Shown piece after piece: positions 42,074 to 45,862 of a stretch of DNA of 64,000 nt (its first letter is position 1; each line of letters begins with the position of its first letter). The translations under genes were made by a program, and so were the position numbers. The notes under the pieces are model-generated. The model saw only the letters and a list, made by a program, of their open reading frames with translations, did not search any database and was not told the origin of the DNA. The stretch is from positions 62,001-126,000 of the forward strand of contig PQAM01000015.1 in the NCBI GenBank assembly GCA_003104975.1, in the 5' to 3' direction. The stretch comes from Candidatus Methylomirabilota bacterium (GTDB taxonomy: Bacteria; Methylomirabilota; Methylomirabilia; Methylomirabilales; Methylomirabilaceae).

Positions 42074-42358
42074 TCAGATTGCGATATCGATGAGCCGACC
42101 CTTGGGCGGGATCGAGGTGATGGTCTGCTCCCGACTGTAGCAGGCTTCTGAGCATTCCTGATCAACAGACTGCCCCTCAGCCGGCCCAGGCGGCAGCGGC
42201 CGGTCACCCGATGCCGTCGCCGCACCGGACCCACCCCGCTTCGGCCTGCGCCGGGGCGTCCCTCGCGGCGTGTCCTTCCCATCCCCGCGCGACTCCGATA
42301 CGCGCTGCAGCGCGCCGACATCCGGCACAGACTCGTTGACCCGAGACAGACCGTCCAT
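42074..42358 (-). CDS. Small hypothetical flagellar-operon protein
   Basis: A 94-residue, low-complexity, Gly/Arg/Pro-rich protein ending in PPKGRLIDIAI. Short proteins with a hydrophobic C-terminal xxIDIxx end are common downstream of fliA, but I do not recognise the family. It starts at ATG 42358 shortly after the preceding gene. No signal peptide. It does not look like FlgM. Confidence 0.5.
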   Translation of the reverse strand: MDGLSRVNESVPDVGALQRVSESRGDGKDTPRGTPRRRPKRGGSGAATASGDRPLPPGPAEGQSVDQECSEACYSREQTITSIPPKGRLIDIAI

Positions 42359-42371
42359 CATCGACACCATA

Positions 42372-42980
42372 TCACCGGATACTCTCCACTAGCCTTCGCA
42401 CCGCGATGCGGGTCGCACGTTCAAACGACCAGCCGGCCGTCCCGGCGCTTCCCGGTGCGATCTTTTCGGCCCACAGCAACGCGCCGGCCGGCAGCGCCAC
42501 AAGTCTTGCCTCAACCCCAACCCTCGTCACCCTGGCCGTTCCGTCCCAATACTGATCAACACCGTACAGATCGACGACGATGGCCCGTCGGACCCCGAGC
42601 GCAGCCCAGTCGATTGCGGGGACGAAGGGTGTCGGGTGTCGGGTGTCGGGTGTCGGGTCGTCGATTGAGACCGAGTGGTCGATGCGCCACTCCCAGCCTC
42701 GCAATCGGGCCTCCTCCCGCAGCCAGTCCGGTCCCCGGACGTCGATCCCGGCACGCGACAACTCAAGAACGAAGAGCCTGGCCACCTCCTCGACCAACGG
42801 TCGATCCTCGACGGACACCAACGCCGGCAGCACCACAGTCCGACCCTCCCTGGGGATGACGACCGGCTGAGGTACGGGCGGAGGGGTCGACGATGCGCAT
42901 CCTCCAACCAGCAGACCCGCGCTCAAGAACACGGCCAATACCAGCTCACGAAGCGTAAAGGTCACGCTCTCCTCGGTCAT
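42372..42980 (-). CDS. Putative outer-membrane lipoprotein (internal start within the fliA frame)
   Basis: ATG at 42980 has GGGAGG five bases upstream, a strong internal ribosome-binding site. The 202-residue product begins with a lipoprotein signal: hydrophobic LRELVLAVFLSAGLL then the lipobox VGGC near residue 28. The mature part has a TolB/FlgO-like look (RTVVLPALVSVEDRPLVEEV followed by ARLFVLELSRAGI, and RVGVEARLVALPAGALLWAE), but the family is not certain. Residues about 108-118 are encoded by a GGGTGTC heptamer array. I think it is normally a separate gene translated after fliA. Confidence 0.65.
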   Translation of the reverse strand: MTEESVTFTLRELVLAVFLSAGLLVGGCASSTPPPVPQPVVIPREGRTVVLPALVSVEDRPLVEEVARLFVLELSRAGIDVRGPDWLREEARLRGWEWRIDHSVSIDDPTPDTRHPTPFVPAIDWAALGVRRAIVVDLYGVDQYWDGTARVTRVGVEARLVALPAGALLWAEKIAPGSAGTAGWSFERATRIAVRRLVESIR

Positions 42981-43751
42981 CAGGTCCTCCCGGCGGATCC
43001 TGATCTGAAGCAGTCGCGCCCGCATCCGGAGTATGGCAGAGGTATGGATCTGTGAGACCCGCGATTCCGAGACCTCGAGCACACGACCGATCTCCTTCAT
43101 CGTGAGTTCCTCGACGTAATACAAGGTAAGCACCATCCGCTCCTGAGTCGGTAGCCCCTCGATGATGCGGCCCAGAAGCTGCACACGCTCCCTACGGACC
43201 GTCATAACGGACGGATCGCGAGACACGGTATCCGGCAGCTCCCACATGGGCCGATCGCTCTCCGAACCGTCGGCCTCAACGCCCGGCTCATCGAGCGACA
43301 TCAACACCATCCCCCGGATCTCTCCGAGGGTACGCCAGTAACTCTCCAGATCGATCTCAAGCGCCGCGGCCACCTCGTCATCGCCCGGTTCCCGTCCGAG
43401 GTCGGCCTCCAACCGCAGCAGTGTCTGCTGGATCTCCCGCGCCTTCGCGCGGAGCGAACGGGGCGCGAAATCCTGCGCCCTGAGATCGTCGAGAATCGCG
43501 CCGCGGATCCGGTGCTGGGCATAGGTGGCGAACTCCGACGGCTGGTCGGGGTCATAGTGTTCGACAGCGGTCATCAGGCCCACCGCGCCGGCGCTTTCCA
43601 GATCGTCCAGCTCGACGCATGACGGCAATTGCAGCGAGAGCCGCCCGGCGACCTGGCGCACCAGACCGATATACGCCGTAATCAACCGATCCCTCAGCCC
43701 GGGATCCTTGGTCCGGCGATATGTTCTCCAGTCGTCCCGCGTAATGTCCAT
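42372..43751 (-). CDS. fliA: Flagellar sigma factor FliA in one frame with a lipoprotein
   Basis: Residues 1-257 are a complete sigma-28 factor: region 2 with LDDLESAGAVGLMTAVEHYD, then FATYAQHRIRGAILDDLRAQ; region 3; region 4 with LTLYYVEELTMKEIGRVLEV followed by SESRVSQIHTSAILRMR. FliA normally ends here, but no stop codon occurs and the frame continues into a 202-residue lipoprotein with its own signal peptide. At the junction the sequence CTGATGACC would give a stop-start overlap (TGATG, as used elsewhere in this locus) if read one base over. A one-base change near the end of fliA, a sequencing error, or a true fusion are all possible. It follows flhF-flhG. Confidence 0.85.
   Translation of the reverse strand: MDITRDDWRTYRRTKDPGLRDRLITAYIGLVRQVAGRLSLQLPSCVELDDLESAGAVGLMTAVEHYDPDQPSEFATYAQHRIRGAILDDLRAQDFAPRSLRAKAREIQQTLLRLEADLGREPGDDEVAAALEIDLESYWRTLGEIRGMVLMSLDEPGVEADGSESDRPMWELPDTVSRDPSVMTVRRERVQLLGRIIEGLPTQERMVLTLYYVEELTMKEIGRVLEVSESRVSQIHTSAILRMRARLLQIRIRREDLMTEESVTFTLRELVLAVFLSAGLLVGGCASSTPPPVPQPVVIPREGRTVVLPALVSVEDRPLVEEVARLFVLELSRAGIDVRGPDWLREEARLRGWEWRIDHSVSIDDPTPDTRHPTPFVPAIDWAALGVRRAIVVDLYGVDQYWDGTARVTRVGVEARLVALPAGALLWAEKIAPGSAGTAGWSFERATRIAVRRLVESIR
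42627..42657 (+). repeat. Perfect heptamer array (GGGTGTC) inside the fliA/lipoprotein frame
   Basis: Four perfect tandem copies of GGGTGTC at 42627-42654 plus a partial copy (GGG). It encodes a Pro/Thr/Asp/His linker (PTPDTRHPTP) in the lipoprotein part. Each unit is 7 bp, so gain or loss of one copy would change the reading frame. Confidence 0.85.
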
Positions 43752-44693: not shown

Positions 44694-45862
44694 CCCTCCT
44701 CCCTGCGCTCCGACTCACCGACCAGACGCCGCGCCAGCCGTAACGGCTGCGCCTCTTCGATATCGTCCGGAACCTCTTGACCCGTTGTAAAATACGAAAT
44801 GGGAACAGCCGCCGCCAGTGCGGCCTCGCACATCGGCCCTACGGTCGCGGTTTCATCGATCTTGGTGGCAATAATGGAACTGAAATGAAGCGGCCTGTAC
44901 CCCTCGACGGCCTGCAGCAGGTCGGCCCGCTTGGTGGTTGCGCTCAGGACCAGGTGGACCTCGTATCCGTCGTCGCGGCGGGCATAGGTCGCCAACTCCT
45001 CCAATTGGTCCTGCCGCCTGGCGCTCCGTCCAACCGTATCGATAAAGATCACATCGGCATCTCGATCGTTCGTCAATGCCCGCCTCAGATCCGCCGGCAG
45101 CGGCGCCACACAGAAGGGCAGTCCGATCAGTTCGGCGTAACTCTTGAGTTGCTGGGCGCCGGCAATCCGATAGGTGTCGGTGGTGATCAGCGCCACCCGT
45201 TTCCCTTCACGGAAATGACACGCGGCCGCCAGCTTGGCGATCGTTGTGGTCTTGCCGACCCCCGTCGGCCCCACCAGCGCTACGACCCGACGCCCGGAAC
45301 CCGCGTACGATATGGGCGTCCTGACGACCTCTCGAGCCAACACCTCGGCAAGCACGGACGACACCGGCGCCGCGTCGGAGGATGCCGCCTCTCGAAGTCC
45401 ATCCCTCACGGAGGCGACCCACCGACGGGCTACTCCCTCCTCGACCTCCTGGACCAGCAACGACCAGTAGATCCGGCCGAGCGCAGGCGACAGATCGGGC
45501 GGCAGGGGCCCTCGGCCGTAGAGACCGGATATCATCCCTTTGACCTGCTCAAGCTCGCGTCGCAATATCTCAAGCTCAGGTGGAGTCGGCGCCGTCGCTT
45601 CAGCAGTTGGGGTGTTGAGTGTTGAGTGTTGAGTGTTGAGTGTTGAGTCAATACTTGACACTTGACACTTGACACTTGACACTTTGGGGGGATCACCGTC
45701 CAGCGCCGCCATGACCTCCACCCCCTGTCGTCGGGTAAACGACAGACCATCGGCGAGCGGAATGCTCTTGGTGTGCAGGATGACCGCCTCCGGGCCCAAC
45801 TCTTCCCCGATTTGGCGTAACGCCTCATCCATCGTTGCGGCGCGAAATCGCTTAAGATGCAT
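44690..45862 (-). CDS. flhF: Flagellar biosynthesis GTPase FlhF
   Basis: SRP-type GTPase that directs placement of new flagella. The 390 residues show the FlhF B domain (MHLKRFRAATMDEALRQIGE), a linker, then the N and G domains: P-loop [65 protein letters not shown]. The linker at residues about 61-84 is encoded by two perfect heptanucleotide arrays (45612-45681) and looks inserted. It overlaps flhA by 11 bp and flhG by 4 bp. Confidence 0.94.
   Translation of the reverse strand: MHLKRFRAATMDEALRQIGEELGPEAVILHTKSIPLADGLSFTRRQGVEVMAALDGDPPKVSSVKCQVSSIDSTLNTQHSTLNTPTAEATAPTPPELEILRRELEQVKGMISGLYGRGPLPPDLSPALGRIYWSLLVQEVEEGVARRWVASVRDGLREAASSDAAPVSSVLAEVLAREVVRTPISYAGSGRRVVALVGPTGVGKTTTIAKLAAACHFREGKRVALITTDTYRIAGAQQLKSYAELIGLPFCVAPLPADLRRALTNDRDADVIFIDTVGRSARRQDQLEELATYARRDDGYEVHLVLSATTKRADLLQAVEGYRPLHFSSIIATKIDETATVGPMCEAALAAAVPISYFTTGQEVPDDIEEAQPLRLARRLVGESERREEG
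45612..45681 (+). repeat. Paired perfect heptamer arrays inside flhF
   Basis: 45612-45646 is five perfect copies of GTGTTGA. After GTCAATA, 45654-45681 is four perfect copies of CTTGACA. The second block is close to the reverse complement of the first, so the pair could also fold. It lies in the non-conserved linker of FlhF. One unit more or less would frameshift the gene before its GTPase domain. Confidence 0.92.

Follow-up and report, generated by a model that had tools for sequence, protein, structure and literature searches.

A sigma-28 gene that continues in frame into a lipoprotein

We found that in a Candidatus Methylomirabilota bacterium a complete FliA (sigma-28) coding sequence runs without a stop into a signal segment, a lipobox and a periplasmic-type domain, and sequence comparison with related species confirmed that this in-frame fusion is genuine, far beyond chance. 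The gene lies on the minus strand of the window (the whole stretch of 64,000 nucleotides that was analysed, contig PQAM01000015.1, from a genome of 3.0 Mb). It starts with an ATG that has a Shine-Dalgarno sequence and ends with a TGA, with 459 codons and no stop in between. The features of the gene are as follows.

42372..43751, minus strand (43751→42372): whole fused ORF, 459 amino acids plus stop; FliA/sigma-28, signal segment, lipobox, periplasmic-type domain
42981..43751, minus strand: FliA/sigma-28 part, about residues 1-257; regions 2, 3 and 4 and C-terminal tail
42900..42980, minus strand: predicted signal segment, residues 258-284; acidic stretch (net charge -2) and hydrophobic core LVLAVFLSAGLLVGG (residues 270-284)
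42897..42911, minus strand: lipobox LVGG↓C285, identical in four species
42375..42899, minus strand: C-terminal lipoprotein domain, residues 285-459 (175 from C285); modelled PelC/CsgG/FlgT-like fold
42978..42980, minus strand: in-frame ATG, codon 258; candidate internal start, ATC in the other three species
42986..42991, minus strand: GGGAGG, Shine-Dalgarno-like, in the window species only
Tryptic peptides spanning the junction: EDLMTEESVTFTLR (window species), DDLIAEESATFTLR (G005), DDLIHEESASFTLR (G006), DDLITEESAAFTLR (G010)

A proline-rich linker separates the lipobox (LVGGC, C285) from the C-terminal domain. The fusion gene is located in a large flagellar cluster, in which FliI, FliM, FlhB, FlhA, FlhF and FlhG are recognisable on the same strand (names given from the sequences and the order of the genes rather than from a family search). 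Directly downstream of the fusion there is a 98-aa ORF (42074-42370, minus strand), whose C-terminus GRLIDIAI is recognisable in all four fused species; it is much shortened in G005, and it had no match in family profile searches. We also observed perfect or near-perfect 7-base tandem repeats inside coding frames (42627-42663, 45612-45648 and 45653-45684; units GGGTGTC, GTGTTGA and ACTTGAC), which fall within a variable loop of the C-terminal domain and within flhF (STLNTQHSTLNTQHSTLNT). Similar 7-base units are present upstream of flagellin genes in relatives.

The fusion is conserved in all sampled fliA-bearing species of the genus

The family sample consisted of 15 genomes, all from one genus, and fliA was present in four of them. 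All four species carry the full-length, stop-free frame, as the original prediction of a complete FliA in frame with a signal peptide, lipobox and periplasmic domain had it. The other three fused proteins are 76-80% identical to that of the window, and one of the fused species (G005) has a genome assembled as a single contig of 2,752,854 bases. Over large segments of the fusion the pairwise dS among the four species was about 0.6-1.1, and dN/dS was 0.11-0.15 for the FliA part, 0.12-0.23 for the signal core (residues 263-284) and 0.20-0.31 for the C-domain, indicating that all three are under purifying selection; the 15-residue linker (248-262) evolved faster than the rest. Because three other species keep the same full-length frame with dN/dS of 0.11-0.31, the open frame is far beyond what chance would leave. 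These comparisons indicate that the fusion is stably fixed and kept under selection, and its translation as one chain is very likely. The stop-start overlap at the junction, one base out of frame, would fit an error in sequencing or assembly, or an indel that recently inactivated the gene, but the frame common to four species, one of them with a single-contig genome, and the strong purifying selection already refute this explanation, to which we assign practically no weight.

In the genus, fliA is missing from 11 of the 15 species (G001-G004, G007-G009, G011-G014). Flagellin is encoded in all four fusion genomes; it is absent from the three fliA-less species tested. Taken together, the 11 species without fliA and the three without flagellin suggest that flagella were lost in much of the genus.

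The N-terminal half has the features of FliA

Sigma-28 is a soluble late flagellar sigma factor that is held by FlgM. Residues 23-247 of the fusion match the FliA/WhiG family (TIGR02479, 239.1 bits against a cut-off of 189.6), and the Pfam domains Sigma70_r2, r3 and r4 all score above their cut-offs, so that regions 2, 3 and 4 are present. The protein thus resembles FliA in its regions and its family score, as it does in its flagellar cluster and in the presence of FlgM (PF04316, which scores above its cut-off in each of the four fusion genomes). It differs from FliA in its length: the sigma-28 chains encoded at 80 loci of other phyla stop 13-72 residues past the region 4.2 motif, whereas that of the fusion continues for about 225 residues, and this extra stretch holds the signal segment, the lipobox and the periplasmic-type domain. 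The lipoprotein domain was found in none of the 80 loci. A sigma-28 from an unclassified bacterium (L144, match from 3001, WJIQ01000176.1) has a 72-residue tail that ends in a hydrophobic stretch (Kyte-Doolittle mean 1.95), possibly an independent case of a membrane-tailed FliA.

We found no other fliA of normal form in the genome, the remaining matches being distant sigma factors of 25-33% identity. We scanned the genomes for sigma-28 promoters with a simple consensus (TAAA-N15-GCCGATAA, at most one mismatch) and obtained 19-26 matches per genome versus 9-14 in the reversed control. Neither the consensus scan nor an alignment of flagellin upstream regions revealed a clear sigma-28 promoter, and upstream of flagellin no clear site was seen.

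The fusion probably arose once from an overlapping gene pair

The original prediction had pointed to related genomes as the place where two separate genes might be seen. Such genes occur only outside the genus, and within it fliA is fused in every sampled species that has it. In a species of the same order and another family (G021), fliA ends at its own stop and overlaps the lipoprotein gene in another frame; in a species of the same class and another order (G088), the pair overlaps as TGATG; a third unfused pair (G040) is a weaker case. The unfused orthologous lipoproteins carry the lipoboxes LVAGC and ALAGC, and the fused and unfused domains are homologous, with 22 invariant columns and 29-32% identity to the window. 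Among the 95 genomes of the class that were searched, every match to the lipoprotein domain adjoins fliA; the domain represents an unnamed family of this class of bacteria.

In a tree of the FliA part the four fused proteins form one group with full support, and therefore a single fusion event is enough; an overlapping gene pair probably fused once. Since the unfused pairs overlap in different frames, an ancestral frame change, in the ancestor of the flagellated species, would have joined both genes. Of the predicted one-base indel that erased the fliA stop, a frame change is consistent with the overlapping out-of-frame genes of the unfused relatives; as a local error or a recent event, the indel is contradicted by the frame that four species share.

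A predicted internal lipoprotein signal and a modelled PelC/CsgG/FlgT-like fold

The fusion has no N-terminal signal peptide with a basic n-region of its own; its signal is internal. The signal segment has a 19-residue Kyte-Doolittle mean of 2.0-2.3 in all four species, and its hydrophobic core of 15 residues ends in LVGG↓C. Sec signals usually have basic n-regions, and the signal peptides of two stand-alone orthologues carry net charges of +1 and +2. In all four fused species residues 258-269 have a net charge of -2, and the C-terminal tail of FliA, with a net charge of +3 to +5, supplies the positive flank. From this distribution of charge the signal looks adapted to its internal position. 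A stable membrane anchor would usually be longer than this hydrophobic core, and tethering might therefore be transient. An LspA gene is present in three of the four fusion genomes (the fourth genome is 80% complete), and RseP is present in all four.

A model of the C-domain built from six sequences (pLDDT 75, pTM 0.72) aligned with PelC (Z 12.9 over 133 residues), CsgG (Z 10.4) and FlgT, a protein of the flagellar basal body (Z 10.0), in structure comparisons that included Foldseek. Sequence searches gave weak matches to GNA1162-like proteins (PF05643) in five of the six members (best E 0.013) and a marginal match to PDB 4hrv (E 0.045). The C-domain model thus aligns with the PelC/CsgG/FlgT/GNA1162 fold over most of its length, whereas the similarity in sequence is marginal at best. 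Folds of the PelC/CsgG/FlgT type are common among periplasmic and outer-membrane proteins, and the gene context of the C-domain would fit a role in the flagellar basal body. The full-length AlphaFold model of the fusion was poor (pTM 0.34), also around the junction, and was not used for topology.

Proposed maturation of the fusion and its alternatives

Among ECF sigmas there are known cases of fusion to a membrane segment. In IutY, an ECF sigma is joined to a membrane anti-sigma factor, and Prc and RseP release the sigma part (PMC8999054); the ECF52 protein SCO4117 has a periplasmic domain (PMC8999054; PMC5826349). In E. coli, RseP is described as taking part in the removal of signal peptides from the membrane (PMC8144685). 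By sequence and model, the fusion resembles these proteins (IutY/ECF243, ECF48/52/53) in having an N-terminal sigma factor, a membrane segment and a periplasmic domain in one chain. They are, however, ECF sigmas fused to anti-sigma domains, whereas here the sigma factor is sigma-28 (it has a region 3 and matches FliA/WhiG families best, so it is not of the ECF type), a lipobox is present and FlgM is separate. Neither the whole protein nor the C-domain had a Pfam or NCBIfam match to a fused anti-sigma domain. Among sigma-28 proteins we found no report of a membrane fusion in the open-access literature.

Starting from the sequences (the fusion and its conservation, the lipobox, and the LspA, RseP and FlgM genes) and from the modelled fold of the C-domain, we infer a topology, an LspA cleavage and a release. 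A single pass of the ribosome would yield one chain with its FliA portion in the cytoplasm, where the basic FliA tail would act as the cytoplasmic flank of the internal lipoprotein signal. The chain would insert N-in/C-out and place the PelC/CsgG/FlgT-fold domain in the periplasm; lipidation and a cut by signal peptidase II (LspA) at C285 would then free the lipoprotein. Sigma-28 would be left with a membrane tail and would either work tethered or be freed once RseP cuts the signal remnant, and export of the periplasmic part would be coupled 1:1 to sigma-28. We favour this model as a whole, a fixed fusion with an internal lipoprotein signal and a tethered or RseP-freed sigma-28, with moderate confidence, and membrane insertion and processing seem reasonably likely from the sequences. 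Release by RseP, which we draw by analogy, is a tentative proposal. Equally speculative is a polyprotein switch, in which export of the lipoprotein and the signal-peptidase II cut would be followed by an intramembrane cut of the remnant that yields free sigma-28.

The fusion might instead stay intact as a ToxR-like one-component regulator, with the C-domain as a periplasmic sensor (e.g. of flagellar assembly) and sigma-28 permanently tethered. Such a regulator would share all the evidence for the fusion (the frame in four species and the dN/dS ratios), would suit a periplasmic-type domain with a FlgT-like fold, and has parallels in the membrane-fused ECF sigmas with periplasmic domains (IutY, SCO4117; PMC8999054). 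However, the invariant lipobox cysteine and the presence of LspA lead one to expect cleavage, and the hydrophobic core has only about 15 residues; we consider an intact fusion rather unlikely. A degradation scheme, in which a cytoplasmic protease cuts FliA off and the lipoprotein half is a mere by-product that is degraded, would agree with the fast evolution of linker 248-262, but is very improbable, since an unchanging lipobox and a dN/dS of 0.20-0.31 in the C-domain show that this half is still selected.

It had also been predicted that a fused product and a lipoprotein initiated separately at ATG258 may both be made, from the GGGAGG, the in-frame ATG and the out-of-frame TGATG at the junction, all of which are indeed present in the window. 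In the window species the Shine-Dalgarno sequence of ATG258 reaches -10.3 kcal/mol, almost as strong as at the best gene starts in the cluster (flhG -11.1, flgE -10.7), and in this species alone such a strong internal start could yield a separate lipoprotein. In the other three species, however, codon 258 is ATC with a Shine-Dalgarno sequence of -4.0 to -4.5 kcal/mol, no internal ATG, GTG or TTG has one better than -4.4 kcal/mol, and ATG258 is the derived state on the tree, with moderate support (85/86). The n-region of a separate lipoprotein would moreover have a net charge of -2. Fourfold-site variation at the junction lies at the 61st percentile of windows, with only 13 sites that count; as this is ordinary, it gives no hint that an overlapping start or a frameshift element has been conserved. 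We rejected both, since synonymous change shows no suppression and conservation is lacking for the ATG, the Shine-Dalgarno sequence and the TGATG. As a conserved arrangement the two products do not hold, and as a general explanation they are distinctly less probable than an intact fusion.

We return to the preferred model, in which the fused chain would be inserted and cleaved. A fixed and selected fusion would imply a membrane-localised or membrane-matured sigma-28, and with it a second layer of control. If the polyprotein switch were true, flagellar expression would pass two gates, FlgM and the secretion of a lipoprotein of the envelope or basal body. The fusion also appears to illustrate how an overlapping gene pair can turn into a single regulator.
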